Of a stretch of DNA of 36,178 nt, positions 15,830 to 36,178 are shown piece by piece. The notes beneath the pieces were generated by a model. The model had not been told where the DNA came from and did no database searches. It worked only from the letters and a program-made list of their open reading frames with translations. How positions within the stretch are numbered: the first letter of the stretch is position 1; each line of letters begins with the position of its first letter. The stretch lies in contig JAMPYE010000003.1 of the NCBI GenBank assembly GCA_023700825.1, positions 1-36,178 of the forward strand, read 5' to 3'. Position numbers and translations under genes: made by a program. This stretch comes from Thermoanaerobaculia bacterium (lineage in GTDB: Bacteria; Acidobacteriota; Thermoanaerobaculia; Gp7-AA8).

Positions 15830-15990
15830 ACGAGACGAGCGGAGTGATTTCCGGCGGGTGGGAGTTCGTCACCGCCGCCTACGCGATCACGGCAGTCTTC
15901 CTGGGGGGGTACGTGGTTTCGGTCCTCGCCCGTTTCTCCAGGGAGAGCAAGGCAGCCCGGCGTCGCGCCTCGGGCTCGGAGGTGAACTAA
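15826..15990 (+). CDS. ccmD: CcmD-like small membrane protein (54 aa)
   Basis: MNETSGVISGGWEFVTAAYAITAVFLGGYVVSVLARFSRESKAARRRASGSEVN: one TM with a basic tail, located between ccmC and ccmE. In the ORF track it is hidden inside the out-of-frame ORF 15142..15990. Confidence 0.8.
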   Translation: MNETSGVISGGWEFVTAAYAITAVFLGGYVVSVLARFSRESKAARRRASGSEVN

Positions 15991-16481: not shown

Positions 16482-16496
16482 CGGAGGGTTCCCCCC

Positions 16497-18506: not shown

Positions 18507-19020
18507 AGTTCTCATCGCCGGCCTCGTCATCGTCGTTCCGTTCATCGTCCTGCTGGTGATGAACCTTGGGCGCGACCCGCACAAGGTCGACTCGCCGCTG
18601 ATCGGTAAGGCGTCGCCGCCGTTCTCGCTGCGACAGGTTGGAACACCCGCCGTCGTCGACATCATGTCGCTGCGCGGCAAGCCCGTCGTCCTGAACTTCT
18701 GGGCGACCTGGTGCGTGCCTTGTTATGCCGAACACCCCGTGCTCGTCGCGGGCGCCCGCCAGTACGCGGACAAGGCGCAGTTCGTCGGCGTCGTTTACGA
18801 CGACCAGGAGAACAAGATCGTCCAGTTCCTCGCCGAGAACGGGTCGAGCTACCCGACGCTGTTCGACGAGTCGGGGCAGACCGCGATCGCCTTCGGCGTC
18901 TACGGTGTGCCCGAGACGTTTTTCCTCGACGCGGACGGAAAGATCGTCGACAAGCACGTCGGCCCGCTCGATCCCGCCACTCTCGAAGCCAAGCTCCGGC
19001 TCGCCGGGGCATTCAGGTGA
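18460..19020 (+). CDS. ccmG: Membrane-anchored thioredoxin CcmG/DsbE/ResA-like (exact start uncertain)
   Basis: NFWATWCVPCYAEHP (CxxC) and YGVPETFFLDADGKIVDKHVG. ORF-track GTG at 18460 overlaps ccmF; TTG at 18496 is an alternative. Confidence 0.9.
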   Translation: MTPRKRAEERPSLNRKVLIAGLVIVVPFIVLLVMNLGRDPHKVDSPLIGKASPPFSLRQVGTPAVVDIMSLRGKPVVLNFWATWCVPCYAEHPVLVAGARQYADKAQFVGVVYDDQENKIVQFLAENGSSYPTLFDESGQTAIAFGVYGVPETFFLDADGKIVDKHVGPLDPATLEAKLRLAGAFR

Positions 19021-19025
19021 GTCCG

Positions 19026-19664
19026 ATGACATTCCGCCACACCATCGCGCGACGGTTCGTGCTCGCGTTGACGCTGCTCATGCTCGTGCTTCCCCTCGCG
19101 GCGCAGGCGCCCGAGCGGTCGGACGAGATCAAGTCGCCCGATCCGAAGTGGGTCGTCGGCGATCCCGCGGGCCCGCCGCGGACGGGTGTAGAGCTCGAGA
19201 AAGAAACCGCGCGTGTCGCGAGCCTTCTGCGCTGCCCGGTCTGCCAGGGGCTCTCCGTCAACGACTCGCCTGCCACGATGGCGCAGAACATGAAGCGCCA
19301 GGTGCGCGACCTCGTGGCGAAGGGCTACTCCGAAGAGCAGGCACTGCTCTATTTCGAGCGCGCCTACGGAGAGTTCGTGCGCCTCGAGCCGCCGCTCCGC
19401 GGGGTGAACTGGCTCGTCTGGGCCGCGCCCGTCGCGCTGCTCGTCATCGGGGGGTTCTTCGTTCTCTTCATGATGAAGCGGCTGCAACGAGCACCGAAGA
19501 ATGTCGAGGTCGCGAGCGTCGACTCGGCGACGCCGGGTCGTGACACGCTTCCCGACGACGAGCATCTTGCGCACTACGTGCTTCGCACGCGCGAGCTGGC
19601 CTATGGCTGGCCGGGCGGGCTCTCGCCCGCGTCGCGCGGCGAGGGCGGGGAGGAGTCGCGATGA
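19026..19664 (+). CDS. ccmH: CcmH/CycL heme ligation reductant
   Basis: LRCPVCQGLSVNDSPATMAQNMKRQVRDLVAKGYSEEQALLYF. ATG at 19026, in frame with the longer ORF 18711..19664. Confidence 0.93.
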   Translation: MTFRHTIARRFVLALTLLMLVLPLAAQAPERSDEIKSPDPKWVVGDPAGPPRTGVELEKETARVASLLRCPVCQGLSVNDSPATMAQNMKRQVRDLVAKGYSEEQALLYFERAYGEFVRLEPPLRGVNWLVWAAPVALLVIGGFFVLFMMKRLQRAPKNVEVASVDSATPGRDTLPDDEHLAHYVLRTRELAYGWPGGLSPASRGEGGEESR

Positions 19665-21097
19665 TGATGCTGATGCAGGCACCACCAGTCGACTGGACCC
19701 TGCCGATTGCGATGCTCCTCGGCGGGCTCGTGATCGGTACGATCGTCGCGATCGTCGTCTCGCAACGGAGCCCGAAAACGCGGAAGGACGACGCCCCCCT
19801 CGACGCCAACTCGCACGAGCTCGAAGTCCGCGATCTCGGTGCGAAGCGCGACTCGCTCTTCGACCAGCTTCGCGAGCTCGACGACACGAGCGCGAAACGC
19901 GACGCCGATCAGCTTGCCGTCGAGCGCTACGAGCTCGAGCTCGAAGCGGCGAGAACGCTTCGCCGGCTTGACGAGCTGACGGGACGCCACGCGCCCTCGA
20001 AGCGCAGTGCTCCCGGCGCGAAGGCTGTCGCGGCCGCCGCTCCGGCAGTCGAGGTCGAGACGGTCGTCGCTCCCCCGAGTCCAGTGAAGGGATTCCTCTG
20101 GGGAATCGGCAGCGCAGCCGCGATCGTCGCCCTCGTCTTCTTCGTCGCGAAGTCGGCGGACGAACGGGGCGACGGTGGCTCGATGACCGGCAACATCCCG
20201 GGTGGTGGAGGCATGCAGTCGGGAGACGGCGCGCCGCAGGATCCCGAGATGCAGCAGCTGCTCTCGCGCGTGCAGGCAAATCCGAACGACCTCGACCTTC
20301 GTAACGAGCTCGCGTTCCAGCAGCTGATGCGCGAGCAGCTCATGGGAGTGTTCGAGACGACGCAGTACGTTCTCGAGCGACGGCCCGGCGACCCTGCGGC
20401 GATGACCTATCAGTCCGTCGTACGGCTCGCGATGGGGCAGTCGGCCGAAGCGGAGCAGATGCTGAAGCGAGCGATCGAGGCGCGGCCCGACCTGCTCGAC
20501 GCGCGCGTCTACCTCTCGCTCACGTACGCGCAGCTCGGACGCTATGACGAGGCCAAGGCAGCCATCGACGAGGCGATCCGCCTGAGTCCCGCCGAGGCCG
20601 ACCGTCTCCGCCAGCTCTGGTCGCAGATCGAAGCGCAGAAAGCCGCGGGCCCTCCGCCGTCGACCGCGGGGAAGAAGGACGATCCTCATGCCGGCATCGC
20701 ACTCCCGCCGATGAGCGGAGAAGGCGTGCAGCCCGCCCAGGCGCCGCCATCGACGGCGTCGTCGGATCCGCGCGCGGTGCGCGGAACGCTGACGCTCGCC
20801 GCGGGGGGGAGCGTGCCGCGAGGCGCGGCCGTGTTCCTGATCGTGCGCACGGCCGGAGCGAAAGGCGGCGCGCCCGTGGCGGTCGCGCGCGTGGACGCCG
20901 GCTCGTTCCCGCTCGCGTTCGAAGTCAGCCTCGCGAACTCGATGATGGGGCAGCCGCTTCCCGACTCCATGCTCATCGAGGCGCGCGTCGATCTCGACGG
21001 CAACCCGATGACGCGCGATGCCGGTGCCCCGTCCGGGTCCGCCGACAACGTCGCAGCGGGATCTTCGGGAGTGAAGATCGATCTCTCGGTTCGCTGA
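19661..21097 (+). CDS. ccmI: CcmI-like TPR protein
   Basis: N-terminal TMs, TPR-like repeats (DLDLRNELAFQQLMREQLMGVFETTQYVLERRPGDPAAM; DLLDARVYLSLTYAQLGRYDEAKAAI), and a C-terminal beta domain as in CcmI. Last gene of the operon. Confidence 0.85.
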   Translation: MMMLMQAPPVDWTLPIAMLLGGLVIGTIVAIVVSQRSPKTRKDDAPLDANSHELEVRDLGAKRDSLFDQLRELDDTSAKRDADQLAVERYELELEAARTLRRLDELTGRHAPSKRSAPGAKAVAAAAPAVEVETVVAPPSPVKGFLWGIGSAAAIVALVFFVAKSADERGDGGSMTGNIPGGGGMQSGDGAPQDPEMQQLLSRVQANPNDLDLRNELAFQQLMREQLMGVFETTQYVLERRPGDPAAMTYQSVVRLAMGQSAEAEQMLKRAIEARPDLLDARVYLSLTYAQLGRYDEAKAAIDEAIRLSPAEADRLRQLWSQIEAQKAAGPPPSTAGKKDDPHAGIALPPMSGEGVQPAQAPPSTASSDPRAVRGTLTLAAGGSVPRGAAVFLIVRTAGAKGGAPVAVARVDAGSFPLAFEVSLANSMMGQPLPDSMLIEARVDLDGNPMTRDAGAPSGSADNVAAGSSGVKIDLSVR

Positions 21098-21210: not shown

Positions 21211-22512
21211 ATGGATAACTCGCTGCAGGGTAATCTCGGTCATTTCTCTCTCCATGACGTTCTTCGCTTCCTCGCGGACGGAGGACGTACGGGAACGATG
21301 AAGCTCACCAGCGGCGGCCGCGAAGCCATCGCGTGGCTCGACGGAGGCGCGATCGTCTTCGCCTGGTCCAACCAGGAGCAGATGCGGATGCCGCTCGTGC
21401 TGGCGCGGCGCGGAAAGCTGACGAAGGATCAGCGCGCACGGCTCGAGGAGCTCGCCAAACAGGAAGGCGAGCGCTTCGCGCAGGCGGCGATCAAGCAGGG
21501 TGTGTTCAAGGCCGATCAACTCCGCGACCTTTCCGCGGAGTACGTCGCCGAAGTGATGATCGACGCTCTCCTCTGGGACGGCGGTTCGTTCGGATTCTCG
21601 GTCGAGCTGGCGCTTCCCGACTCGGCGGTTCCGGTGCTGCTCAAGGTCGACGATCTGCTCGAGCGCGGCGCGAAGCGCGAGGCCGAGTGGGCGGAGTGCC
21701 GCAAGCTCTTCCCGAACCCCGCTCAGGCCTTCCAGGTCATGGGCGACCCCGAGGCCGACGAGAAGATCACGCTCAGCGTCACGCAGTTCAAGACGCTGCT
21801 CAAGATCAAGGAACTCGGCGCCGCGAGCGTCGAACAACTCTGCCTGATGCTCGACCGCGATCCTCTCGAGACCTACCGGACCATGGACGGCCTCCGCACT
21901 GCGGGGCTGATCGTCGAATCGTCGGCGCCCGTTGCCGTCGCGACTGCGCCAGCCGTCAGGCCGGTGCCTCCTCCACCGGCTCCCGCTCCTCCCGTCGTCG
22001 CCGCGCCCCCCCCGCCGCCGCCGGCACCGGAGCTCGAGAGCGAGGACGATGTCCCGACGGCAGTCGCGGACTGGCGTGATCAGGTCGCGCATCCCGCACC
22101 CGATGCCGCTGGCATTCCGGAACCGGAGCCGACTGTTGCCACGCCGCTGGCTTCGTTCCGTCCCGCGCCGGAGCCGTCGATCGAGTCGCTCATCGGAGTG
22201 CTCACGCTCGACAATGCCGACAAGACTTCGTTCCCTCTTTTCGAGACGGAACACTCGGTCGGACGCGAGGCGAACAACTCGATTCAGGTTCCCGACTCGA
22301 GCGTCTCGGGGGCGCACGCACGGATCCGGAAGACGCCCGAGGGATATCTGCTCGAGGATCTGAACAGCCGAAACGGAACGTACGTGAACGGCGAACGGAT
22401 TCAGACCCGCCTGCTTCGGAACGACGACAAGATCCGTCTCGGCAAGGTCCACATGGTGTTCAACCTGCCGACTCAGATGCAGCCGCCGAAGACGACGGCC
22501 CCGGGCGACTAG
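21211..22512 (+). CDS. DUF4388 (PATAN-like) plus C-terminal FHA domain protein
   Basis: LGHFSLHDVLRFLADGGRTGTMKLTSGGREAIAWLDGG is DUF4388-like. Pro-rich linker. FHA: VGREANNSIQVPDSSVSGAHARIRKTPEGYLLEDLNSRNGTYVNG. Confidence 0.88.
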   Translation: MDNSLQGNLGHFSLHDVLRFLADGGRTGTMKLTSGGREAIAWLDGGAIVFAWSNQEQMRMPLVLARRGKLTKDQRARLEELAKQEGERFAQAAIKQGVFKADQLRDLSAEYVAEVMIDALLWDGGSFGFSVELALPDSAVPVLLKVDDLLERGAKREAEWAECRKLFPNPAQAFQVMGDPEADEKITLSVTQFKTLLKIKELGAASVEQLCLMLDRDPLETYRTMDGLRTAGLIVESSAPVAVATAPAVRPVPPPPAPAPPVVAAPPPPPPAPELESEDDVPTAVADWRDQVAHPAPDAAGIPEPEPTVATPLASFRPAPEPSIESLIGVLTLDNADKTSFPLFETEHSVGREANNSIQVPDSSVSGAHARIRKTPEGYLLEDLNSRNGTYVNGERIQTRLLRNDDKIRLGKVHMVFNLPTQMQPPKTTAPGD

Positions 22513-22759: not shown

Positions 22760-25159
22760 ATGAGCTCACGCCAGAGATTTGATCTCATCATCGTCGGCTC
22801 GGGCCCCGCGGGTATTGCAACCGCGTCGCACGCGCACGACAACGGCATCAACTACGTGCTTCTCGAGAAGACTGACCATCTCTCGGACACGATCTTCTGC
22901 TATCAGGCACGCAAGTACGTCATGGCGGAGCCGATGGCGATCCCCGCGCGCGGCGACGTGCCGTTCGAAGCGGGATCCCGCGAGCAGATTCTCGGAGCAT
23001 GGGAATCGCACGCGAAGAACAAGCAGCTGAAGGTCGAGTACAACAAGGAAGTCAAGTCGGTGAAGAAGGTCGGCGCGACCTTCGAGGTCAAGGCCGCCGA
23101 CGGCAGCGAGTACGAAGGCAAGTGGGTCGTGCTCGCGATGGGAACGCAGGGATCGCAGCGCAAGCCCGGGTGCCCCGGCGAGGACATGTCGCACGTCCTC
23201 TATCGCCTCGCGGATCCTTCCGAATACGCCGAGAAGGACATCATCGTCGTCGGCGCCGGCGATTCCGCGATCGAGATCGCTGTCGCGCTGGCCGACGAGA
23301 ACCGCGTGAGCCTCGTCGTGCGCTCGGCGGAAATCGTCCGTGCGAAGGACAGTCTCATTCGCGAGGTGCTCACGCGGCAGGCGCAGGGCAGCATGACGGT
23401 CTACTACGGCACGACGCTGAAGGAGATCACCCTCGGCCATACCGACCTGAACGTGCGCGGAGAGACCGTTCGCGTTCGGAGCGACTACATCTTCCTGAAG
23501 CTCGGAGCCGACGCGCCCCGGAAGTTTTTCGAGTCGATCGGCGTGAAGTACACGAGTTCCGACAAGGACGCGCGTCCTTCGCTGACGCCGCAGTACGAGT
23601 CGGTCGACGTTCCTGGGCTGTTCCTGATCGGCGCCGCGAGCGGTCGCGACCTGGTCAAGCTCGGCATGAACCAGGGGTGGGAAGTCGTCGAGCATCTCTG
23701 CGGACGCAAGGTCGATCCGGCCGACGAGGCCGTGCTCAAGGAGCGGCTGCCGCACTGGAGCGGTTCCGTCGTCGAGCGAATGCAGCAGATCAAGCAGCGC
23801 GTGCCGCTGCTGGCCGCGGCCGACGACGAGAATCTCCGCGAGATGTTCCTCTCGACGAACGTGCGTGAATACCGCGACGGCGAGGCGATCATCCGCCAGA
23901 ACGACTACACGAACGAGTTTCTCATCATCGCCGAGGGGCGCGTGCAGCTCTGGGTCTCTCCGGAGGGATCGAAGGAGCAGCGGAAGATCACGACGATGAC
24001 CGCGGGGAACTTCTTCGGCGAGATGAGCCTGATCTCCGGCCGCCGCCGCACGGCAACGGCGATCGCGGAAGGACCCACGCGGATCATCGAGGTTCCGCGC
24101 AAGGCGATTCTCAAGCTGCTCGTCACGTCGCCGCGAGTGAAGGATCTCGTCGACCAGGCGTTCCTGATCCGCGCGATCCAGGGATATCTCTTCGGCGACA
24201 CGCCCGCGACGGTGCTGGGCGAGCTCGCCGCCAAGGCGACGATGATCACGCTCGCCAAGGATGCACCGGTGTTCAAGGAAGGCGATCCGGGCGACGCGTT
24301 CTACCTGATCCGCAACGGCATGGTGAAGATCGGCAAGACTTCGAACGACAAGGAGATCGTCCTTTCGTATCTCGTCGCCGGCAACTTCTTCGGCGAGTCG
24401 GCGCTGCTCGAGGGCGCGCCGCGCACCGCGACCGTGACGACGATCTTCCCGTCGGAGCTGATCAAGCTTTCGAAGCGGGACTTCGACCAGTTCCTCGACA
24501 GTCAGCCCGAACTGAGGAAGAAGCTGCTCAAGAAGCTCGAAGACCGGCGCGTGCTCAGCCTCATCGCCGAGGCGACGCCGGGGTCGGGGAGCATCCTGAA
24601 CGACCTGATCCGCGAAGAGGTCGTCATGGGAACGCACTCGCTGATCATCGACAACCACAAGTGCGTGCGGTGCAGCAACTGCATCCGCGCGTGCGAGGGG
24701 GTCCACGCCGACGGGCAGTCGCGCCTCTCGCTCACGGGCATCCAGCTCTACAACCTGCTCGCGCCGAACTCGTGCTGGCAGTGCCAGAACCCGATGTGCA
24801 TGCTCGACTGTCCGCCCGACGCGCTCACGCGCGACCCGCGCGGCGAGGTCTACATCCGCAGCAACTGCATCGGCTGCGGCAACTGCGAGAGGAACTGCCC
24901 GTACGGCAACATCTTCATGGTGCATCCGAAGCATGAAGGCGGCGGTCTGTTCGGCTGGATCAAGGGACTCTTCAGCAAGGAGAAGGCGGCGCACGACGAG
25001 GTCGAACGCACGCTGGCGGTCAAGTGCGACCTCTGCCGCGAGATCAGCGGCGGGCCGGCGTGTGTTCGCAGCTGTCCCACGGGCGCCGCGGTCCGGCTCA
25101 CTCCCGAGGAATACCGGGGCACACTCGAGGAACTGGTCATCATGAGAGGAGAGCGTTAG
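22760..25159 (+). CDS. Fusion: NAD(P)/FAD-dependent oxidoreductase - two cyclic-nucleotide-binding domains - four-cluster [4Fe-4S] ferredoxin module
   Basis: FAD GxGxxG (IIVGSGPAGIATA) and NAD(P) GxGxxA/S (IIVVGAGDSAIEIA). cNMP phosphate-binding cassettes FFGEMSLISGRRRTATA and FFGESALLEGAPRTATV. Cys motifs CVRCSNCIRAC, CWQCQNPMCMLDCP, CIGCGNCERNCP and CDLC...CVRSCP. Confidence 0.92.
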   Translation: MSSRQRFDLIIVGSGPAGIATASHAHDNGINYVLLEKTDHLSDTIFCYQARKYVMAEPMAIPARGDVPFEAGSREQILGAWESHAKNKQLKVEYNKEVKSVKKVGATFEVKAADGSEYEGKWVVLAMGTQGSQRKPGCPGEDMSHVLYRLADPSEYAEKDIIVVGAGDSAIEIAVALADENRVSLVVRSAEIVRAKDSLIREVLTRQAQGSMTVYYGTTLKEITLGHTDLNVRGETVRVRSDYIFLKLGADAPRKFFESIGVKYTSSDKDARPSLTPQYESVDVPGLFLIGAASGRDLVKLGMNQGWEVVEHLCGRKVDPADEAVLKERLPHWSGSVVERMQQIKQRVPLLAAADDENLREMFLSTNVREYRDGEAIIRQNDYTNEFLIIAEGRVQLWVSPEGSKEQRKITTMTAGNFFGEMSLISGRRRTATAIAEGPTRIIEVPRKAILKLLVTSPRVKDLVDQAFLIRAIQGYLFGDTPATVLGELAAKATMITLAKDAPVFKEGDPGDAFYLIRNGMVKIGKTSNDKEIVLSYLVAGNFFGESALLEGAPRTATVTTIFPSELIKLSKRDFDQFLDSQPELRKKLLKKLEDRRVLSLIAEATPGSGSILNDLIREEVVMGTHSLIIDNHKCVRCSNCIRACEGVHADGQSRLSLTGIQLYNLLAPNSCWQCQNPMCMLDCPPDALTRDPRGEVYIRSNCIGCGNCERNCPYGNIFMVHPKHEGGGLFGWIKGLFSKEKAAHDEVERTLAVKCDLCREISGGPACVRSCPTGAAVRLTPEEYRGTLEELVIMRGER

Positions 25160-25161
25160 GC

Positions 25162-25992
25162 GTGCCAATCCCGCGTTACGGTGTCCGCTGGCGCATCATC
25201 GCCCTCGTTCTGACGATCGGGCTCGTCGCGTCGTACGTCTGGTACCAGGGGCGCGAGCCGTTCACTCACGGTGGAACGCCGACGGGCCTCATCTACGGCT
25301 TCGTCGCCCTCTTCATGATGGGGTTCCTGCTTTATTTCGGCATCCGGAAGCGCGCCTACCGCAGTCGCTTCGGCACCCTGCAGGAGTGGTTGCACGCACA
25401 CATCTGGCTCGGTCTCTTCAGTTTCTTCGTGATCGTGGCCCATACCGGCCTCCGCTTTCAGGACAAGATTGCCGTGGCGCTCTTCGTGGTGATCGTCGGG
25501 GTGATCGCCACGGGCATCTTTGGGGCGCTGCTCTACAAGACGATTCCGAGAGAGCTGACGGAGATCCAGTCGAACCTCACGGGGCAGGAGATCTCCGACC
25601 AGCTCAATCAGCTTTCGAAGGCGATGGCGCGAATCGCGTCGGGCAAGTCGTCGCCGTTCCAGAGGATCTACTACAGTCTCCAGCGCGAGGCGATGCCGGG
25701 ATTCCTGGCGGGCTGGAAGCTCATCCTCTCGAGCGGCAAGCGGAACGAGAAGGCGGGAGACTGGACCGGCCTGGTCGGGATGGTCGAGAAGAGCGAGCAA
25801 GACGAGCTTCGTCAGTTGCTCGTCGCCTCGCGCCAGCAGAAGGAGCTGCATCTTCGCCTCGTCTACCAGCAGCGCTACCGCAACATTCTCGATTTCTGGC
25901 TCTACCTGCACATTCCCCTGTCGGTTGCGATGATCGTGCTGATCTTCGCGCACGTGTGGGGTGTCTTCTACTACGGCGTGGTCAAGTTCTGA
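25162..25992 (+). CDS. Membrane b-type cytochrome-like protein (ferric reductase/cytochrome b561-like topology)
   Basis: N-terminal TMs. Helices with HIWLGLFSFFVIVAH and HIPLSVAMIVLIFAH (both H-X13-H), consistent with two stacked b-hemes. GTG start 2 bp after the upstream stop. Confidence 0.75.
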   Translation: MPIPRYGVRWRIIALVLTIGLVASYVWYQGREPFTHGGTPTGLIYGFVALFMMGFLLYFGIRKRAYRSRFGTLQEWLHAHIWLGLFSFFVIVAHTGLRFQDKIAVALFVVIVGVIATGIFGALLYKTIPRELTEIQSNLTGQEISDQLNQLSKAMARIASGKSSPFQRIYYSLQREAMPGFLAGWKLILSSGKRNEKAGDWTGLVGMVEKSEQDELRQLLVASRQQKELHLRLVYQQRYRNILDFWLYLHIPLSVAMIVLIFAHVWGVFYYGVVKF

Positions 25993-26035
25993 GGACGCGA
26001 GCCCCGCGAGACGGCTCGACGAGATACGGCGAACG

Positions 26036-28435
26036 ATGAGCTTCATCATTCAGAGGATCGAAGGCTCCAAGGTCATTCTTCGGGAGCACAAGGGCTCGAC
26101 GCTGCGGATCGGACGCGGCACGGATGCGCAGCTCCGATCGGAGAATCCGGTCGTTGCCCTCGAACACGCCATCATCGAGGCGCTCGAGTCGGGCTACGAC
26201 ATCGTCGACCGCGGCAGCATCACCGGCACCTACCTGAACGGCAGGACGATCGAGTCGAGCCGGCTCGGCAAGGGTGACGAGATCGAGATCGGCGACCTTC
26301 GGATCACGGTGCAGTCCGCCGACGCGGGCCGGCCGCTCTTCATCCGCGTCGAGGAGACCGACGAGGAGAGCGCCGCCGACGAGGACATTCCGGTGCCCGT
26401 GGGCACCGTCGCTCTCCCTCGGCCCGCTCCCGGAGGCGTGCTCAAGGCGCCGCGCGTCGACTACGTCGCGTCGTATCAGCTGCAGCGGAAGTTCCTCTCG
26501 AAGACCGTCGTGGCGTGGATGGCGATTCTCGTCGCTCTCACGACGCTCGGACTCGTCACCGTCGGCAACCAGCAGGTGGCGTTCCGCCCCGGCAAACTCT
26601 CCGTCGCGCACACCCAGGCCGCGGTCGAAGGCGTGCGACTGATCGGCGAGAGCAACTGCAGCGCGTGCCACGCGCCGTGGGGCGGCGCGACCGACGAGAA
26701 GTGCCAGGCATGTCACAAGCAGGCCGGTCACCAGGAAGGCCTCGCGCAGGTTGGCGCATGCACGGCGTGCCACACCGAGCACCGCCAGCTCGCGAATCTC
26801 GGCGAGGTCTATCAGCGCGAGTGCCTCGCGTGCCACAAGGAACTGCAGCCCGATCCCGGCAAGACGCTTCGCGTCGCGAAGAACATCACTGCGTTCGAGA
26901 AGGACCATCCCGAGTTCAAGCTCACCATCCTCGCCGGCGGCAAGGAGACGAAGGTCAGCCTGAGCGACCCGAAGGGTCGTTCGGCCGACGCCAATCGCTT
27001 CAAGTTCAACCACCAGTGCCACGTCGTCGGCACCTGCAACAAGCGACCCCCGACGATCGAGAACCCGGTCCAGGAAGTCGAGAAGCTGACGTGCGACTCG
27101 TGCCACAAGGTTCAGGGCGACACGGGCATCATCGACGACCGCTCGTACGACAAGTACTGTGCGCGCTGCCACCCTCTCACCTTCGACAACCGCTTCCCGC
27201 CGGTTCCTCACCATCTGAACCTGCAGACCGTCGCCGGCTACATCGCCAACGCCTACTCTGGAAACCAGAACATCCTGAAGATGAGCGCCGAGGAAGTCAC
27301 TCGCGTCTTCGCGTCGGGCTCGTCGAACCAGATCAACGTGGGAAGCGAGATCGTCCGCAGCGCGCAGCGAACGGTGCAGGCGCGATGCAAGGTCTGCCAC
27401 GACTTTCAGCCTAACGGGGAGGCCGTGCGTCCGCCGACCAAGTCGAACCGCTGGTTCAAGGGCCAGCGCGTCTTCGACCACGGCAAGCACCTCAACGAGA
27501 GCGTCAAGACCAAGTGCATCGACTGCCACGAAGGCGTGGTCGAGAGCAAGAAGACGTCCGACGTCAACATGCCGGGCATCAAGACCTGCGTCGGCTGCCA
27601 CAAGGCGGCGAGCGAGTACAAGGACAAGGGCATCGAGACGTGCCAGACGTGCCACGCGTACCACTCGCTGACGGTGTCGCAGGGAGCGGGTTGGACGCTC
27701 AAGGCCTCCGTCATTCCTGCGGAGATGCGACTCATCGCGCTCGGAGGCAAGTCGGAGTCGCAGCAACCCGGCAAGCCGGCGACGAACCGCTTCGCGGTAC
27801 CCCTTTGGGCGGCGTTCGCCGTGCCGATCGGCCTGGTCGTGCTCATCGGAGTCGTCGGCGGGTTGCTCGGCGCGATCCGTGCGCGCGCCGCCGCTCCGAC
27901 TCCTCCTCCCGCGCCGCCCAAGCCCAAGGGCGGAGCGCCGAAGCCCGCACCTTCCGCCGCGCCCGCTGCGCCCCCGAAACCCGCAGCCCCGAAACCTGCT
28001 GCGCCTAAACCGAAGCCGGCGCCCCCGCCTCCTCCCGTTCTTCCCGAGAGCACGGTGGCGATGGATCTCTCCGAAGTGAAGCGTACGGTCGCGGAGGCGC
28101 TGCCGGCGGGACCGACGGTGAATGCCGAGTACTTCGGCAGAATCGCCTTCACCGGAGGGAAGTTGTCGGGACAGAGCTTCACGATCGATCCCGACAAGGG
28201 TCTCTTCATCGGACGAGACCGCGAGGTCGCGAGCGTCGTGATCGATGACTCCCGCATCTCGAGACGCCACACGTGGGTCGGCGTTAGGGACGGCAAGGTC
28301 GTCGTGGTCGATCAGAAATCGACCAACGGCACGTACCTGGAGTCGACTCAGAACCGGATCACCGAGGCGGAGTTGAAGGAAGGCGCAGTCGTGATTCTCG
28401 GGGAGAACGCGGCGAGTTTCAGGTATGAGCGCTGA
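26036..28435 (+). CDS. FHA - TM - decaheme c-type cytochrome - TM - Pro-rich linker - FHA protein
   Basis: Ten CXXCH (CSACH, CQACH, CTACH, CLACH, CDSCH, CARCH, CKVCH, CIDCH, CVGCH, CQTCH) between two TM segments. N-terminal FHA-like fold (LRIGRGTDAQL...VDRGSITGTYLNG) and canonical C-terminal FHA (FIGRDREVASVVIDDSRISRRHTWV...STNGTYL). ATG at 26036. Confidence 0.93.
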   Translation: MSFIIQRIEGSKVILREHKGSTLRIGRGTDAQLRSENPVVALEHAIIEALESGYDIVDRGSITGTYLNGRTIESSRLGKGDEIEIGDLRITVQSADAGRPLFIRVEETDEESAADEDIPVPVGTVALPRPAPGGVLKAPRVDYVASYQLQRKFLSKTVVAWMAILVALTTLGLVTVGNQQVAFRPGKLSVAHTQAAVEGVRLIGESNCSACHAPWGGATDEKCQACHKQAGHQEGLAQVGACTACHTEHRQLANLGEVYQRECLACHKELQPDPGKTLRVAKNITAFEKDHPEFKLTILAGGKETKVSLSDPKGRSADANRFKFNHQCHVVGTCNKRPPTIENPVQEVEKLTCDSCHKVQGDTGIIDDRSYDKYCARCHPLTFDNRFPPVPHHLNLQTVAGYIANAYSGNQNILKMSAEEVTRVFASGSSNQINVGSEIVRSAQRTVQARCKVCHDFQPNGEAVRPPTKSNRWFKGQRVFDHGKHLNESVKTKCIDCHEGVVESKKTSDVNMPGIKTCVGCHKAASEYKDKGIETCQTCHAYHSLTVSQGAGWTLKASVIPAEMRLIALGGKSESQQPGKPATNRFAVPLWAAFAVPIGLVVLIGVVGGLLGAIRARAAAPTPPPAPPKPKGGAPKPAPSAAPAAPPKPAAPKPAAPKPKPAPPPPPVLPESTVAMDLSEVKRTVAEALPAGPTVNAEYFGRIAFTGGKLSGQSFTIDPDKGLFIGRDREVASVVIDDSRISRRHTWVGVRDGKVVVVDQKSTNGTYLESTQNRITEAELKEGAVVILGENAASFRYER

Positions 28436-28443
28436 TTTCCGGG

Positions 28444-28472
28444 TTGACAAGACACGGATCCAAGGTTACGTT
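28444..28472 (+). promoter_or_regulatory. Putative sigma70-type promoter
   Basis: TTGACA (28444-28449), 17-bp spacer, TACGTT (28467-28472); AAAGGTG RBS just before the ATG at 28500. Confidence 0.45.
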
Positions 28473-28499
28473 TTCGCCACAACTTAAAAAGGTGAATCG

Positions 28500-30269
28500 A
28501 TGAGCCCAAGAGCCTTGCATCGTGGGGTAGTACGCCGTTTTCTGCTCATTTTCACGATATCCCTGCTGGTCGGCGCGGGCGCAGCGCTGGCGCAGCCGAC
28601 TCCTCCCGACTGCGCGGGAGTCGACGTCGTCGGTTCTCCCTGTCGCGACGGGCGCCCCGGGGGGATCGAGGCGGCGGAGGGATCGTTCCTTCCGCTCAAC
28701 GCCGACGAGGTGAGAAGCCTGGCGGTGACGGCGTCGGTTCTGATCGACGATCCGAAGATCACCGTGGCGGTGGTCGATCGGGCAGGCAGGGTTCTCGCGA
28801 TCGTGAGAAATCCCGAGGCCGACCCCGCGAACGACGAGTTGGCAGTGGGCGTCGCGCGCACGTCAGCGTTCTTCAGCCACAACACCGCGCCGCTCTCGTC
28901 GCGCACCGTGCGTTTCATCAGCAGCCTGCACTTCCCACCTGGCGTGAAGAAGGCCTACGAGAACGCGCTGTACGGGATCGAGAACACCAATCGCGGCTGC
29001 GACTTCAACCTTCAGTTCAACGCGGGAAAGTGCATTCCCCGCGCGACTTCCGTCGTCAATGCCGGACCCTGCAACGGGCTCGACAACTCCGGCTGCGGGC
29101 CGGGGATCGTGACGGGCAAGCCGCAGCCGTTCGATCAGCACGAGGACGGGAAGCACCCGGCGCCGATCGGACTGCAGGGACCCTTCAACCCGGGCGGTCT
29201 GCCGGTCAATGCGGGCGGCATTCCGCTCTACCGCATCGGCAGTTTCGAGATTCTCAAGGGAAGCCTCGCCGAGGGCAATGCGAAGGTCGAAGTCGAAGGG
29301 CCCAGCTACATGGTCGGAGCCATCGGAGTCGCGGGCGTGTCGTCGGACCACGCGGAGTTCGCGGCGTTCGGCGCGGCCGCGCTCGGAGTCCCCGGGGTCA
29401 TCTTCCCGGCTCCGTCGTTCCCCGAACTGCCGCGGCCCGGGCGAGTCATCATCGACGGAATCCGCCTTCCTTTCGTCGACCAGGGGTTTCGTCCGAAAGG
29501 CACGAGGCAGGCGGCGGCGGCTTCGGGGACGTTCATCGTCGGTCCGAATCCCGGAGGGTGCGTCGGCAACCGTTATCTCGCCGGGCCGATCGGATCGCCC
29601 GAGCTGAGCCGTGACGAGGTGGACGGGATCATTCGCCGCAGCGTCGCGACCGCGCAGAAGACGCGCGGATACATCCGCCTTCCGCTGAACTCCTACTCGC
29701 GGATGGTCATCGCCGTCTCCGACCTGAACGGCAACATCCTCGGGCTCTATCGCATGCCGGACGCGACGATCTTCTCGATCGACGTCGCGGTGGCGAAGGC
29801 TCGCAACGTCGTCTACTTCAGCGGCGCAGGAAACTCGGATCTGCCCGGCGTGCCGGTGGGTACCGCGGTCAACGCCCGCACGCTCGGTTATGCCGGCTCC
29901 CCGCTCTTCCCGGGTGGCATCGATTTCACGGACCCGGGGCCGTTCTTCGACATCTTCCTCAACGACCTCGCCAACGCCTGTTCACAGGGGTTCCAGGCGC
30001 CTAACGCCAACCAGAACGGGATCGTCTTCTTCCCGGGCTCGACGCCGCTCTATCGGAACGGGGTTCTGGTCGGTGGCCTCGGGATTTCCGGGGACGGCGT
30101 CGACCAGGACGATTACGTGACGCTCAAAGGAGCAGCAGAGTTCTACCCCGATCCCTCGATCTGGGCCGATCGCGTGAAGATCGACGGAGTCCGACTGCCG
30201 TACCTCCACCTTCCCCGCCAGCCGGAAGGCGTAACCGAGAAATTCATTGAGCCCTTCGATGAGCCATAG
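28500..30269 (+). CDS. Secreted protein with tandem HbpS/GlcG-like (heme-binding/DUF336) domains
   Basis: Signal peptide FLLIFTISLLVGAGAALA. Two copies of a similar arrangement: VAVVDRAGRVLAIVRNPEADP...VGVARTSAFFSHN and IAVSDLNGNILGLYRMPDATIFSIDVAVAKARNVVYFSG. Each is followed by GIPLYRIG... or STPLYRNGVLVGGLGISGDG. Confidence 0.82.
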   Translation: MSPRALHRGVVRRFLLIFTISLLVGAGAALAQPTPPDCAGVDVVGSPCRDGRPGGIEAAEGSFLPLNADEVRSLAVTASVLIDDPKITVAVVDRAGRVLAIVRNPEADPANDELAVGVARTSAFFSHNTAPLSSRTVRFISSLHFPPGVKKAYENALYGIENTNRGCDFNLQFNAGKCIPRATSVVNAGPCNGLDNSGCGPGIVTGKPQPFDQHEDGKHPAPIGLQGPFNPGGLPVNAGGIPLYRIGSFEILKGSLAEGNAKVEVEGPSYMVGAIGVAGVSSDHAEFAAFGAAALGVPGVIFPAPSFPELPRPGRVIIDGIRLPFVDQGFRPKGTRQAAAASGTFIVGPNPGGCVGNRYLAGPIGSPELSRDEVDGIIRRSVATAQKTRGYIRLPLNSYSRMVIAVSDLNGNILGLYRMPDATIFSIDVAVAKARNVVYFSGAGNSDLPGVPVGTAVNARTLGYAGSPLFPGGIDFTDPGPFFDIFLNDLANACSQGFQAPNANQNGIVFFPGSTPLYRNGVLVGGLGISGDGVDQDDYVTLKGAAEFYPDPSIWADRVKIDGVRLPYLHLPRQPEGVTEKFIEPFDEP

Positions 30270-32298
30270 AACGAACGCACTCGCTCTTGCCGCGGCGGTT
30301 CTGATCGCCGTGGCCGCGCTCGGCGCGCACGCCGAGGATCTGACGCTGACGATCGGGGTGTCGGCAGACACGCCGGTCTACGCACACACCGCGAGGCCGG
30401 AGATCGCCGGCTCGACGAACGCCCCGCCCGGTTCGGTCGTCGCCATCACGATCGACGGACAGACGCAGAACGCGCAGGTCGGCGAGGACGGCAAGTTCTC
30501 CGTCGAATGGGGCATCGACCTCGAGGTCGGGTCGCACCTGGTCAGCGCGAGCGTTTCGACTGCCGACGGCCGGAGCGCGAAGGCCGAGCAGGATCTTCGC
30601 GTCGACCTCGAAGAGTTCATGCCGCGCCAGCCGATCGAGCCGCTTCTGATTCCGGAGCCGCTCCCGCGGATCGTCCCGAACATCGAGGACTTCGCCGCGT
30701 ACACCGACCGCTGGCAGATCTCCCCGCCGGCCGACTACGAGTTGCAGGTGTCCCCGCGAGGGAAGTGGGATCCGTACAACCAGAACATCCTCAAGGGAGA
30801 CAAGCCTCGCTTCGGCAAGGACATCTTCCTGAACCTGACCGGAATCTCCGACTTCCTCGTCGAGATCCGCGACCTGCCGACGCCCACGGGCATCTCGACC
30901 GACGACCCGACCTCGTTCCCGTTCTTCGGTGACAGCGAGCAGGTCGTCATGAACCAGAACGTCGTGATGACCGCGGACCTCTACAAGGGCCTGACCACCT
31001 TCCGCCCCGCGACGTGGCGTGCCCGCGCCACCCTGGTGGGCAACGTGAACCACGTGATTCTGCAAGAGGCGAACGCCGTGAACATCGACGTGCGAGAGGG
31101 GACCGATCGCACGGATGGAACCTTCGCCGTGCAGGAGCTCTTCTACGAACGCAAGCTCGCCGACCTGACTGAGAGCTTCGACTTCATGTCGATCCGCGCC
31201 GGGGTGCAGAGTTTCGTCAGCGACTTCCGCGGCTTCATCTTCAACGACCAGAACCTCGGTGTCCGTTTCTTCGGCAACTGGGACGCGAACCGTTACCAGT
31301 ACAACGCGGCTTTCTTCGATCGTCTCGAGAAGGACACCAACAGCGGGCTCAACAAGGTGGAGCGGCGCGAGCAGCAGGTGTTCATCATGAACGCCTACCG
31401 GCAGGACACGTTCGTGCCGGGTTACACCACTCAGGTCAGCTTCCACTACCTCCACGACGATCCGTCGGTGTACTACGACAAGAACGGCTTTCTCGTGCGC
31501 CCTGCGCCGGTCGGTGACTTCGTGCCGCACGAAATCGACGCTTACTACCTCGGCTGGTCAGGGCTCGGCAAGGTCGACGTCTGGAACGTCGATCACGCGT
31601 TCTACTACGTTACCGGCAAGGACAGTCGTAGCCCGATCGCGGGCTCGGATCCGCTCGGCGGCGGAGTCGGCAACGACGGCGTCACGCCGGGTTCGGCCGA
31701 GGTCGACATCAACGGGTACATGGGCTTCGTCGAGATCTCGCGCGACTACGACTGGCTTCGCCCGAGGGCGGCGATCTTCTTCGCGTCGGGAGACGACGAC
31801 CTGTACGATCGCGACGCGGAAGGCTTCGACGCGGTCTTCTCTAACGTGAACGCGCTCGGCGGCGGCTTCAGCTTCTGGAACCGCCAGGGAATCCGTCTTC
31901 CTGGGACGGGCGTCGGCCTCACGCAGCGCGGAAGCCTCCTGGCCGACCTGACGAGCAGCAAGGACGAAGGGCAACCGGAGTTCGTGAACCCGGGCGTGCA
32001 GATCGCGAGCGTCGGACTCGACGTCGACGTCACCCCGAGGATCAAGGCGATCTTCACGACGAACTACATTCGCCTGGCCAAAACCGAGGTCGTCGAGGGC
32101 CTGATCTTCCAGGACGACGTCGACAAGGAGATGGGGCTCGACGTGAGCCTCGGCGTCCGTTACCGACCGTTCTTCTCGAACAACATGACCGTCCTCGGTG
32201 GCGCGGCGATGTTCGCGCCTGGCTCGGGCTGGGAAGACATCTACGAAGACGACGATCTGCACTGGCAATTCTTCACGACACTGACTCTGCAGTTCTGA
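30259..32298 (+). CDS. Outer-membrane beta-barrel protein with N-terminal Ig-like domain
   Basis: Signal peptide. Ig-like segment SADTPVYAHTARPEIAGSTNAPPGSVVAITIDGQ. DRWQISPP...RGKWDPYNQNILKGDKP. Alternating aromatic/beta pattern and terminal Phe (FFTTLTLQF). Confidence 0.8.
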   Translation: MSHRTNALALAAAVLIAVAALGAHAEDLTLTIGVSADTPVYAHTARPEIAGSTNAPPGSVVAITIDGQTQNAQVGEDGKFSVEWGIDLEVGSHLVSASVSTADGRSAKAEQDLRVDLEEFMPRQPIEPLLIPEPLPRIVPNIEDFAAYTDRWQISPPADYELQVSPRGKWDPYNQNILKGDKPRFGKDIFLNLTGISDFLVEIRDLPTPTGISTDDPTSFPFFGDSEQVVMNQNVVMTADLYKGLTTFRPATWRARATLVGNVNHVILQEANAVNIDVREGTDRTDGTFAVQELFYERKLADLTESFDFMSIRAGVQSFVSDFRGFIFNDQNLGVRFFGNWDANRYQYNAAFFDRLEKDTNSGLNKVERREQQVFIMNAYRQDTFVPGYTTQVSFHYLHDDPSVYYDKNGFLVRPAPVGDFVPHEIDAYYLGWSGLGKVDVWNVDHAFYYVTGKDSRSPIAGSDPLGGGVGNDGVTPGSAEVDINGYMGFVEISRDYDWLRPRAAIFFASGDDDLYDRDAEGFDAVFSNVNALGGGFSFWNRQGIRLPGTGVGLTQRGSLLADLTSSKDEGQPEFVNPGVQIASVGLDVDVTPRIKAIFTTNYIRLAKTEVVEGLIFQDDVDKEMGLDVSLGVRYRPFFSNNMTVLGGAAMFAPGSGWEDIYEDDDLHWQFFTTLTLQF

Positions 32299-32314
32299 CC
32301 GAGGCACGCGCGCC

Positions 32315-35300
32315 ATGACTCAAATGATCGGAAAACTGACCACCAATCCGCCGCGCGCCGCAATCGCGGTGATCGCCTTCGTCGCGATTCTCTGCCTGCC
32401 GGCGATCGTCACGTCGTCGACCAGCGGCACACAGGTCGACGCGACGACCGCGTTGATGTCCCAGACGCACGAGCAGGCGCTCGCGAAGAGCCGTTCATGC
32501 CTCGGCTGCCACGAAGGGATCGAGGACGCGCACGCCTCCGACGCCGTCAAGCTCGGCTGCACCGACTGTCACGGGGGTGACGCGAACGTCGCGGTCACGA
32601 AGGGATGGTCGCGCGAGTCGGCCGAGTACGAGCAGGCGATGAACTCGTCGCACGTGCTGCCCCGCCATCCGGAGAACTGGGTGCGCGACGGGCGGCGCAC
32701 GTCGTCGAATCCGACGAACTCTTACGTCGACCTGATGAAGGAGCCGGCGGAGTTCGTGAAGTTCATCAACCCCGGCGATCTCCGCGTCGCGCAGGAAGCG
32801 TGCGGCGGCTGCCACCAGAAGCAGGTCAACAACGTGCCGAAGAGCACGATGGCGACGGCACAGACGTTCTGGGCGGCCGCTTCGTACGCGAACGGAATCC
32901 TCGGTCTCAAGTACGGCATCCTCGGCGAGCACTACACCCGCGACGGCGAGCCGGGCATGATCAAGGAAACGCGCACGCTCACCGACGAAGAGAAAGCGCG
33001 TGGCGCACTTTCCGTGGCGCTGCCGCTTCCCCGCTGGGAGCTCATCCAGCCGGGTGAGTACTTCCGCGCGTTCGAGCGCGGCGGCATCGAGTCGGGGAAC
33101 ACGCCGCCTGAGCCAGGCAATCCGAACATCCTGGAGGAGGCGGGCAAGCCCGATCTCCGCCTGAGCAATCGGGGCCGCGGCACGGGCCTCCGCATCAGCC
33201 CCGCGCTGATCAACATTCACAAGACCCGACTCAACGATCCGCACCTGTCGTTCCTCGGTACGAACGACCACCCGGGCGACTATCGCTCTTCGGGTTGCAG
33301 CGCGTGCCACGTCGTCTACGCGAACGACCGCGATCCGTTTAACTCCGGCCCCTACGCGAAGTACGGCCACCAGGGGCTCAGCCAGACCGGCGACCCGACG
33401 ATTCCGAAGAACGAGAAGGGCCACCCGATCCGCCATCGCCTGAGCCGTGCGATTCCGACGGCGCAGTGCATGGTCTGCCACATGCATCAGCCTAACTCGT
33501 TCGTGAACACCTATCTCGGCTACACGATGTGGGAGAACGAGATCAACGCGGAGTTCATGTATCCGAAGAAACAGAAGTACCCGACGGCCGAGGAGGAGGA
33601 TGCGATTCACATCCACAATCCCGAAGGCTCGTCGGTGCGTGGGCTCTGGTCTGACACCGACTTCCTCGAAAAGGTCAGCGAGCTGAACCCGAAGCTCGAA
33701 GATGGCCAGTTCGCCGACTACCACGGCCACGGCTGGATCTTCAAGGCGATCTTCAAGAAGGACCGCAAGGGAAACCTGCTCGACAAGGACGACAACATCG
33801 TCTCGTTCGAGGACCCCGAGAAGTTCAAGAAGGCGGTCCACCTCAAGGACATCCACCTCGAGAAGGGGATGCACTGCGTCGACTGCCACTTCGAGGTCGA
33901 CAACCACGGCGACAGTTACCTCAAGAGCGAGTACGCGGAAACGATCGAGATCGACTGCGAGAACTGCCACGGCGACAACGACTCGTACGCGAACCTGCGC
34001 ACGACCGGTCCCGCCGCCCCCAAGGGGGGCACCGATCTGTCTCTCATGACGACATCGGGAGGACGCCGCCGCTTCGCCTGGATCGACGGCAAGCTCTTCC
34101 AGCGCTCGGTCGTCGACCCGACGCTCGAGTGGGAAGTCAGCCAGGTCAAAGACTCGATCACGCCTGGACATCCGCAGTACAACGAGAAGTCCCGTTACGC
34201 GAAGACGATCCAGAAGGACGGCTCCACATGGGGGCTCCCCGCCACGGCGGACAAGCTCGCGCACTCGAACCAGAAGATGTCGTGCTACACCTGCCACTCT
34301 TCGTGGATCACGTCGTGCTTCGGCTGCCACCTTCCGCAGAAGTCGAATCGGAAGACCGAAATGCAGCACTACGAGGGAACCGAGACGCGCAATTACGCGA
34401 GCTACAACCCGCAGGTAGTGCGCTCCGACGTCTACATGCTCGGCGTCCACGGCCGCGCGGAGAAGGGCAAGATTGCGCCGGTCCGTTCGTCGAGCGCGCT
34501 GATGCTGAGCTCGACGCAGTCGAACCGCCAGAAGATCTACAACCAGCAGACGACGATCTCGGCGCCGGGCTTCAACGGCCAGGCGTTCAACCCGCACGTT
34601 CCGCACACGGTGCGAACCAGGGAGACGAAGGGCTGCCCCGACTGTCACGTCTCCGAGGCGAACGACAACAACGCCTGGATGGCGCAGCTGCTGCTTCAGG
34701 GCACGAACTGGGTGAACTTCATCGGGAAGTACGCCTGGGTGGCGACCGGGGACGAAGGGATCGAAGCGATCCGCGTGACGGAGGATCCGGAGCCGCAGGC
34801 CGTCATCGGGAGCACGCTCCACAAGATCGTCTATCCCGATTACTACGCGAAGCACGAGAAGAACCACAAAGAACTCGAGGACGCGTATCACCATCACGGC
34901 CACGGGATCCGCAGCCTCCAGCAGCGGGGTGAGTATCTTTACGTCGCGAAGGGCCACGATGGCGTGCAGGTCTACGACATCGCGGTCGTCGACAATAAGG
35001 ACTACTCCGAGCGCTTCGTGAGCTCGCCGTTCACCAAGTACGGCCAGAACACGAAGATCAAGACGAAGTACGCGACGGCGATCGCATTGCCGACGAACAT
35101 GCCGATGGCGCCGCACCGCAAGCCGTTGCCGGGCGAGCAGCTGATCCACCCGACCTATTCGTACGCGTATATCAGCGACAAGGAAGAGGGCCTGATCCTC
35201 TTCAACTCGAACACCTTCACCGACGGCGATCCGCTCAACAACTTCATCGAGAGGGCGGTCACCTTCAACCCCGACGACGCGCTCCACGGAGCGATGAACC

Positions 35301-36094
35301 TGACCGTGGCGGGCAACTATGTGTACCTGGTGTGTGACCGGGGACTACAGATCATCGATGTCAACGATCCGCTCAAGCCGTCGATCATCGCAACGGTCCC
35401 GGAGATCAAGCATGGCACGGCGGTCGCCGTGCAGTTCCGGTACGCGTTCGTGACCGATGCCGACGGGCTGAAGGTCGTCGACATCACGACTCCGAGCCAG
35501 CCGCGCCTCGCCGCAACCGTGCCGCTCGAGGACGCGCGCAACGTCTACGTCGCGAGAACCTACGCGTACGTGGCGGGCGGCAAGCAGGGAATGGTGATCG
35601 TCGACGTGGAGAAGCCGGAGCAGCCGTTCGTCGACCAGGTGTACGACGCCGAGGGCGAGATGCACGGGGTCAATGACATCAAGGTGGGCTCCACGTCGTC
35701 GAGTCTCTACGCCTACGTCGGCGACGAGCACGGGCTTTTCGTCATCCAGCTGACGTCACCGAAGACGGTGCCTGGGTTCGAGGGCTTCTCGCCCCGTCCG
35801 GTCCCGAACCTCATCGCGAAGCGGCACACGCACTCGGCGGTGCTCGCGCTCTCGAAGGGGCTCGATCGCGACAGGGCTGCCGACGAGAGCGGGAACCAGA
35901 CGATCGTCTTCAACAGGCAGGGAGCCCGGCCGATGAACCTGACCGAGCTGCAGAGAATGTACCTGAGAGACGGCCGCCTCTGGACGGTCAAGGCGACGCC
36001 GCCAGGCCCGCCGATGGATCCGCCTCCGGTTGGCGAACAGGCAACGGCGACGCCTGCCCCGAATTCGGCCACCACGACGGGAGGCGGACGATGA
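32315..36094 (+). CDS. Exported decaheme c-type cytochrome with C-terminal LVIVD-repeat beta-propeller
   Basis: Ten CXXCH (CLGCH, CTDCH, CGGCH, CSACH, CMVCH, CVDCH, CENCH, CYTCH, CFGCH, CPDCH). LVIVD-like repeats GLQIIDVNDPLKPSIIATV, GLKVVDITTPSQPRLAATV and GMVIVDVEKPEQPFVDQVY. N-terminal hydrophobic export segment. Confidence 0.93.
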   Translation: MTQMIGKLTTNPPRAAIAVIAFVAILCLPAIVTSSTSGTQVDATTALMSQTHEQALAKSRSCLGCHEGIEDAHASDAVKLGCTDCHGGDANVAVTKGWSRESAEYEQAMNSSHVLPRHPENWVRDGRRTSSNPTNSYVDLMKEPAEFVKFINPGDLRVAQEACGGCHQKQVNNVPKSTMATAQTFWAAASYANGILGLKYGILGEHYTRDGEPGMIKETRTLTDEEKARGALSVALPLPRWELIQPGEYFRAFERGGIESGNTPPEPGNPNILEEAGKPDLRLSNRGRGTGLRISPALINIHKTRLNDPHLSFLGTNDHPGDYRSSGCSACHVVYANDRDPFNSGPYAKYGHQGLSQTGDPTIPKNEKGHPIRHRLSRAIPTAQCMVCHMHQPNSFVNTYLGYTMWENEINAEFMYPKKQKYPTAEEEDAIHIHNPEGSSVRGLWSDTDFLEKVSELNPKLEDGQFADYHGHGWIFKAIFKKDRKGNLLDKDDNIVSFEDPEKFKKAVHLKDIHLEKGMHCVDCHFEVDNHGDSYLKSEYAETIEIDCENCHGDNDSYANLRTTGPAAPKGGTDLSLMTTSGGRRRFAWIDGKLFQRSVVDPTLEWEVSQVKDSITPGHPQYNEKSRYAKTIQKDGSTWGLPATADKLAHSNQKMSCYTCHSSWITSCFGCHLPQKSNRKTEMQHYEGTETRNYASYNPQVVRSDVYMLGVHGRAEKGKIAPVRSSSALMLSSTQSNRQKIYNQQTTISAPGFNGQAFNPHVPHTVRTRETKGCPDCHVSEANDNNAWMAQLLLQGTNWVNFIGKYAWVATGDEGIEAIRVTEDPEPQAVIGSTLHKIVYPDYYAKHEKNHKELEDAYHHHGHGIRSLQQRGEYLYVAKGHDGVQVYDIAVVDNKDYSERFVSSPFTKYGQNTKIKTKYATAIALPTNMPMAPHRKPLPGEQLIHPTYSYAYISDKEEGLILFNSNTFTDGDPLNNFIERAVTFNPDDALHGAMNLTVAGNYVYLVCDRGLQIIDVNDPLKPSIIATVPEIKHGTAVAVQFRYAFVTDADGLKVVDITTPSQPRLAATVPLEDARNVYVARTYAYVAGGKQGMVIVDVEKPEQPFVDQVYDAEGEMHGVNDIKVGSTSSSLYAYVGDEHGLFVIQLTSPKTVPGFEGFSPRPVPNLIAKRHTHSAVLALSKGLDRDRAADESGNQTIVFNRQGARPMNLTELQRMYLRDGRLWTVKATPPGPPMDPPPVGEQATATPAPNSATTTGGGR

Positions 36095-36150
36095 CCGTCG
36101 TGACGCCACGTACTCGCGCGCATGCAGAAGAGATGAAAAGGGAGTCGAAC

Positions 36151-36178
36151 ATGAAACGTCTCATGTCGATCGCAGCGA
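36151..36178 (+). CDS. 5' end of an exported protein, truncated by the window edge
   Basis: ATGAAACGTCTCATGTCGATCGCAGCG (MKRLMSIAA...) looks like the start of a signal peptide, preceded by GGGAG. An in-frame ATG at 36091 is a less likely start. Confidence 0.5.

Follow-up and report, generated by a model that had tools for sequence, protein, structure and literature searches.

A conserved multihaem gene cluster in a Thermoanaerobaculia bacterium points to a candidate NAD(P)H-driven electron export module

Outer-membrane barrel genes adjoin genes for decahaem cytochromes in the MtrCAB, MtoAB and PioAB systems and in the porin-cytochrome complexes of Geobacter, and the MtrB barrel, which holds MtrA, is built of 26 strands. 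In Geobacter, the extHIJKLMNOPQS cluster brings together a porin-size barrel, several multihaem cytochromes, a b-type cytochrome of the inner membrane and an iron-sulfur (Fe-S) protein, and its ExtI has been proposed to be a porin bringing substrate to periplasmic cytochromes (PMC5877670). Here we describe a gene cluster with a comparable inventory but another electron entry in a Thermoanaerobaculia bacterium (assembly GCA_023700825.1; 4.7 Mb in 687 contigs, about 91% complete). The window that we analysed is one entire contig of 36178 bases (JAMPYE010000003.1), in which six genes, g1 to g6, span positions 22760-36094, all on the plus strand and with intergenic gaps of -11 to 64 bases. A preliminary description of this DNA had listed six consecutive co-oriented genes with their main features, and the coordinates, strand, domains and haem motifs agree with that list. 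On balance, we favor the view that the cluster encodes a module in which electrons would pass from NAD(P)H through flavin adenine dinucleotide (FAD), Fe-S clusters and a dihaem b-type protein to exported multihaem cytochromes, bypassing the quinone pool.

The g1 protein lacks a signal peptide and is cytoplasmic. It joins a thioredoxin-reductase-like FAD/NAD(P) module (Pyr_redox_3, 2.3e-39) to two cyclic-nucleotide (cNMP)-binding domains (cNMP_binding twice, 1.5e-43) and a four-cluster [4Fe-4S] ferredoxin (Fer4 families), and all 16 of its cluster cysteines are invariant across 60 homologues. The glutamate and arginine of the phosphate-binding cassette, by which a cyclic-nucleotide-binding domain is recognized, are present in both cNMP domains: E421 occurs in 60 and R430 in 59 of the 60 homologues, while in the second cassette E546 is found in 49 and R555 in 57. 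Because these cassettes are conserved, cyclic-nucleotide control through g1 is plausible.

For g2, whose start codon is a GTG at 25162 (the first listed start of the open reading frame being too early), hydropathy predicted five transmembrane (TM) segments. Four histidines (82, 96, 252 and 266, numbered from 25156) are invariant in 41 and in 57 homologues and form two pairs with partners 14 residues apart, H82/H96 in predicted TM3 and H252/H266 in predicted TM5, an arrangement that would place one haem site near each membrane face. Such spacing is typical of dihaem b reductases of the NADPH-oxidase, ferric-reductase and b561 kind, and a transmembrane dihaem b reductase is expected to carry one His pair on each of two TM helices. 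Weak matches to b561 were found in 34 of the 41 homologues and to ferric reductase in 8, and when the g2 profile was compared with solved structures the matches were limited to coiled coils in a soluble loop. No quinol oxidase of the NapC/NrfH or CbcL type was found in the cluster (g3 matched no NapC family, and its NrfH match reached 17.5 bits against a cut-off of 134). An electron entry unlike that of CymA, CbcL or ImcH had been suggested beforehand, and this is what the NAD(P)H/FAD/Fe-S protein g1 and the dihaem b protein g2 indicate.

The third protein, g3, carries TM helices at residues 158-176 and 593-611 that flank its decahaem part, a layout that suggests an inner-membrane anchor with the decahaem in the periplasm and the FHA domains in the cytoplasm. 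Its ten haem motifs are kept in 62 homologues, where the axial His of one motif differs in one protein, and nine additional histidines are also conserved. In shuffled proteins, 0.017 and 0.015 CxxCH motifs would be expected for g3 and g6, respectively, against the ten counted in each, which rules out chance accumulation. Outside the Acidobacteriota, g3 is shorter and consists of an FHA-like part, TM and decahaem. The case for control through FHA domains is weaker than had been proposed for the cluster. The C-terminal FHA domain has the canonical GR, SxxH and NG signatures (G726, R727, S742, H745, N764 and G765 are invariant in nine Acidobacteriota), but it is confined to that phylum and absent elsewhere. 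In contrast, the more widely conserved N-terminal FHA domain is missing from about 8 of the 62 relatives and lacks the Arg, Ser and Asn of a canonical phosphothreonine-binding site: the Arg is present in 41 of 62, the Ser position is mostly Ala and the Asn position is variable.

The AlphaFold model of g5 (mean predicted local distance difference test score 84) shows an immunoglobulin (Ig) domain and about 18 long strands. Its best match among solved structures was AlgE (Foldseek E 3.2e-16), followed by Occ and chitoporin-type porins, and the C-terminal residue is aromatic in 82 of 83 g5 proteins. None of 50 g5 relatives matched PF11854 (MtrB_PioB), and this result together with the AlgE-like model rules out g5 as an MtrB homologue. 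The same family is absent from the window's genome and exceeds its cut-off in 1 of 18 carrier genomes. The most conserved member of the cluster is g6, in which ten CxxCH motifs are invariant; it carries an export signal, with a lipobox-like start in some relatives, and consists of a decahaem region and then a beta-propeller, which its model shows in the C-terminal part. A fold search with g6 returned beta-propellers and nothing else, its profile found only local matches to octahaem nitrite reductase, and sequence searches of solved structures with g5 and g6 gave nothing useful. In relatives, g6 is directly followed by g7, an exported, c554-like protein with four CxxCH and one CX4CH; these five haem motifs are invariant and five further His are conserved. 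All 32 g7 relatives matched Cytochrome_C554, the DmsE-family match of g7 was weak and partial, and the best solved structure for the g7 profile was Nitrosomonas cytochrome c554 (E 1.6e-8), although g7 is twice as long and its fifth haem site is CX4CH. The three cytochromes g3, g6 and g7 thus carry about 25 haem sites. No soluble periplasmic decahaem of the MtrA/DmsE family was found in the cluster: g3, the only decahaem protein besides g6, has TM helices and no DmsE-family match, and since a helix on either flank of its decahaem part ties it to the inner membrane it is not a wire inside the barrel. The remaining exported protein, g4, begins with a lipobox-like stretch in 38 of 70 relatives.

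When an alignment of g6 was run against 85,462 species genomes, at least 571 encoded g6 relatives were found. The best 80 of these share 50-64% identity with g6 over almost the entire length and belong to the Alpha-, Beta- and Gammaproteobacteria, Acidobacteriota, Nitrospirota, Bdellovibrionota, Zixibacteria, KSB1, Ignavibacteria and others, a spread that rules out a narrow clade-specific oddity. The preliminary description had proposed a search for conserved neighbourhoods as a check and would have been refuted by genes that are not neighbours in related genomes. However, among the 53 informative loci (at least 9 kb of sequence upstream of g6) the complete g1-g6 set occurs in 46, from Acidobacteriota, Proteobacteria, Nitrospirota and others, so the neighbourhood is kept across phyla. 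Gene order among loci with six genes was 123456 in 36 and 234561 in 7, with a few arranged as 456-123. The unit is also larger than six genes, as relatives have the FHA gene g0 before g1, a position kept in most Acidobacteriota relatives with sufficient flank, and the pentahaem cytochrome gene g7 after g6; in the window, the right end of the cluster is cut off at the contig end.

At closer range, full or near-full-length FHA-decahaem-FHA relatives were present in 9 of 40 related genomes (8 of the same family and 1 of the same order), and in all nine the genes follow in identical order out to the ends of the contigs. In a set of 101 genomes from the window's class, 15 have both g1 and g6, one has g6 only and 85 have neither (Fisher p 5e-17). 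Each of 18 carriers reached via their loci has a single locus. Pairwise distances for g1-g5 and g7 follow those for g6 with a Mantel r of 0.83-0.93, which partly reflects shared species history. Since the one sampled congener (G001) lacks g1, g3 and g6, presence of the cluster is patchy, and it has been gained or lost within a genus.

Some copies depart from this pattern in their setting or make-up. Copies borne on conjugative megaplasmids were found in Sphingobium herbicidovorans (pMSHV, L118) and Sphingopyxis indica (pMC4, L119), the former adjoining CHAT, CHASE2 and two-partner secretion genes and a gene for a giant secreted protein. In the Candidatus Binatia metagenome-assembled genome SKYG48 (L039), g5 and g6 are no more distant from the Acidobacteriota copies than the latter are from one another, which could reflect either recent transfer or mis-binning. 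In five loci of Ignavibacteria/Zixibacteria/KSB1 type (L048, L053, L054, L068 and L084), the g1 match is limited to the cNMP and Fe-S half and g1-g3 are placed after g6; in the first three a separate FAD reductase gene of about 765 amino acids comes next, as if the modules had been split. Seven alphaproteobacterial loci have a gene for a small exported protein of about 150-170 amino acids and no known family between g3 and g4 (e.g., L057, 5782-6231).

From the linkage, the cofactor residues, the domain make-up and the barrel model we infer an order and an outward direction of electron transfer, a form of regulation and a kind of acceptor. In the cytoplasm, g1 would oxidize NAD(P)H and pass the electrons over FAD and then its four [4Fe-4S] clusters to g2, whose two b haems would take them across the inner membrane. 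The g3 decahaem, kept against the periplasmic face of that membrane by its one or two TM helices, would receive them, and g7 and g6 would pass them to the outer membrane, at its periplasmic side or onto it. Most likely the porin-size barrel g5 lets in a substrate for reduction, or docks g6, with no cytochrome wire inside. The cyclic-nucleotide domains of g1 and the FHA, kinase and phosphatase surroundings may gate the flow, and the module is probably under cyclic-nucleotide or phosphorylation control. We favor this export path because the conserved series of cofactors is unbroken from NAD(P)H to the exported haems. Electrons that run outward from NAD(P)H go downhill and along the membrane potential. 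Given the low potential of NAD(P)H and a membrane potential that favors electrons moving outward, outward flow is likelier than uptake.

Several points weigh against this view. The g2 protein falls below the Pfam cut-offs (Ferric_reduct 21.5 bits against 28, b561 16.1 against 30.1), g4 holds no assigned step in the path, g6 may lie either in the periplasm or at the surface, and the outward direction is itself something that we infer. In addition, a ten-CXXCH 'Forkhead-associated protein' (cluster 403 of the Gallionellaceae pangenome) occurs in 27 of 87 iron-oxidizer genomes, whereas nitrite-oxidizing Gallionellaceae have no protein with at least 10 haem motifs, which could point to electron uptake (PMC10734462). 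Like g3, that protein combines FHA with ten haem motifs. It would fit an inward chain, in which Fe(II)-like donors, external or periplasmic, are oxidized at g6 and NAD(P)+ is reduced by electrons that arrive via g3 and g2. We nevertheless regard such a chain as improbable, since NAD(P)+ reduction through the b-haem pair would oppose both the redox and the electrical gradients and most carriers, judging by their names, are heterotrophs. Moreover, the Gallionellaceae protein is likened to g3 by description, and that study files it as 'Other', outside any gene cluster or pathway.

The preliminary description had gone further on the outer side and seen an MtrCAB-type porin-cytochrome conduit, a claim that finds no support in view of the AlgE/Occ-like barrel, which is too narrow to take in a wire of the MtrA type, the lack of MtrB_PioB in the genome and the inner-membrane tether of g3. 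The latter two points and a barrel far below the 26 strands of MtrB also make us doubt a true trans-outer-membrane conduit, with g6 or g7 seated within the g5 barrel or on its surface and electrons delivered to external minerals, humics or cells, even though a Cyc2-like single-haem plug could still fit, the barrel gene adjoins multihaem genes in all complete loci, and the 25 haem sites include those of the exported, sometimes lipobox-like g6. A possible alternative, which we hold tentatively, is an assimilatory or detoxifying periplasmic reductase resembling the Ext system, in which the porin imports a soluble oxyanion or complexed metal and the exported cytochromes reduce it. This is a special case of the export module, so the confidence given to the two overlaps. 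Reduction of selenite and tellurite requires ExtI (PMC5877670), the g5 barrel is porin-sized, and g6 and its relatives match the 12-haem ExtM at 61-94 bits. These scores, however, lie far under the equivalog cut-off of 800 and may be partly compositional, and neither the window proteins nor the conserved neighbours include a Rieske protein (ExtO), a cytochrome b (ExtP) or a rhodanese (ExtH), nor were ExtKL relatives seen. A redox sensor or signalling complex, with FHA and cNMP domains reading the redox state of the haems, would explain the kinase, phosphatase, CHASE2 and CHAT neighbours as well as those domains. Yet four [4Fe-4S] clusters, an NAD(P)H/FAD domain, some 25 haems and a barrel far exceed what a sensor needs, and the cytochrome was retained in lineages that lost FHA, so that we consider it very improbable. 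As for the export module itself, its most far-reaching form seems rather unlikely to us: a route driven by NAD(P)H and independent of quinones that would span the entire envelope, be gated by both cyclic nucleotides and phosphorylation, and occur in many aerobic heterotrophs and nitrifiers that are not known for extracellular electron transfer, with a narrow AlgE-like barrel and a propeller-decahaem cytochrome replacing the MtrAB-type wire.

The features of the window are listed in Table 1. The ccm genes abut the cluster here and likewise in Burkholderiales and Sphingomonads, so that the pairing recurs in several phyla. A PP2C phosphatase gene comes after the cluster in 14 loci and a kinase gene is nearby in 6, and several Gammaproteobacteria (L121, L125, L127, L129 and others) have genes for a protein with two FHA domains and a Ser/Thr kinase, with PP2C, downstream. 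In the Acidobacteriota locus L031, a kinase gene lies upstream of the cluster. The window also holds cyclic di-GMP turnover genes, which encode a PAS-GGDEF-EAL protein (9057-11219, minus strand) and a GAF-GGDEF protein (5476-7200, plus strand).

Table 1. Coordinates of the cluster genes and of the adjoining maturation genes in the 36178-base window.
Feature	Position	Strand	Basis or remark
ccmA-ccmB-ccmC-ccmE-ccmF-ccmG-ccmH-ccmI, cytochrome c maturation	13650..21097	+	Read from translations; just upstream
g0, DUF4388 and canonical FHA domain protein	21211..22512	+	Pfam DUF4388 8e-21, FHA 1.4e-19
g1, FAD/NAD(P) reductase with two cNMP domains and four Fe-S motifs	22760..25159	+	Pfam
g2, predicted five-TM dihaem b-type protein	25162..25992	+	His conservation, hydropathy
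g3, FHA-like, TM, decahaem, TM, Pro-rich linker, FHA	26036..28435	+	Pfam FHA, Cytochrome_C7
g4, exported protein with two HbpS/GlcG-like (DUF336) stretches	28500..30269	+	Pfam HbpS-like 2.3e-23
g5, outer-membrane barrel with N-terminal Ig-like domain	30259..32298	+	AlphaFold, Foldseek
g6, exported decahaem cytochrome with C-terminal LVIVD beta-propeller	32315..36094	+	Pfam LVIVD 2.2e-20
g7 start (MKRLMSIAA), exported protein truncated by the contig end	36151..36178	+	28 bases present; cytochrome gene in relatives

No model in NCBIfam or Pfam names the cluster. In open-licence full texts searched for LVIVD, FHA or cNMP with multihaem proteins, there was no description beyond the Gallionellaceae line (PMC10734462). 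The view that the combination is not a named system has thus held, and the match to a named respiratory complex that would have overturned it did not turn up in these databases and texts. The supplement of a large multihaem survey has hundreds of unnamed multihaem neighbourhoods (PMC11475568), and the cluster may be among them. We are therefore dealing with a unit that is conserved over several phyla, mainly in oxygen-breathing bacteria, and for which we found neither a name nor an experiment in the open-licence literature. If our reading is correct, it would be a widespread and so far unrecognized route for NAD(P)H electrons to haem proteins near the cell surface, with an electron entry new to multihaem export systems (from NAD(P)H over Fe-S clusters and b haems, not from quinol) and a control layer previously undescribed for them. 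The use that aerobes would make of about 25 exported haems could be tested in culturable Parahaliea, Limnobacter, Duganella and Steroidobacter.

Set against the described systems, the cluster is an unnamed variant of multihaem trans-envelope electron transfer and not a categorically new one. It shares the pairing of barrel and decahaem genes with MtrCAB, MtoAB, PioAB and the Geobacter complexes, but it has an AlgE-like barrel of about 18 strands, no MtrA-like soluble decahaem and no quinol-oxidizing CymA, ImcH or CbcL. At the inner membrane, g2 resembles NADPH oxidase, ferric reductase, MsrQ and cytochrome b561 in its four invariant His, set in two pairs about 14 residues apart on two TM helices, and presumably in receiving electrons from a cytosolic flavin. 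However, the flavin partner of g2 is a separate protein of thioredoxin-reductase type that also carries cNMP domains and four [4Fe-4S] clusters, and the electron exit is a decahaem cytochrome. The Geobacter Ext system is alike in its overall inventory, and g6 and ExtM have a cytochrome region in common; that system has a Rieske/cytochrome b pair, a rhodanese and 12-, 10-, 5- and 4-haem cytochromes of its own, whereas the present cluster is set apart by the NAD(P)H/FAD/cNMP/[4Fe-4S] fusion, the FHA decahaem, the HbpS-like protein and the LVIVD propeller.

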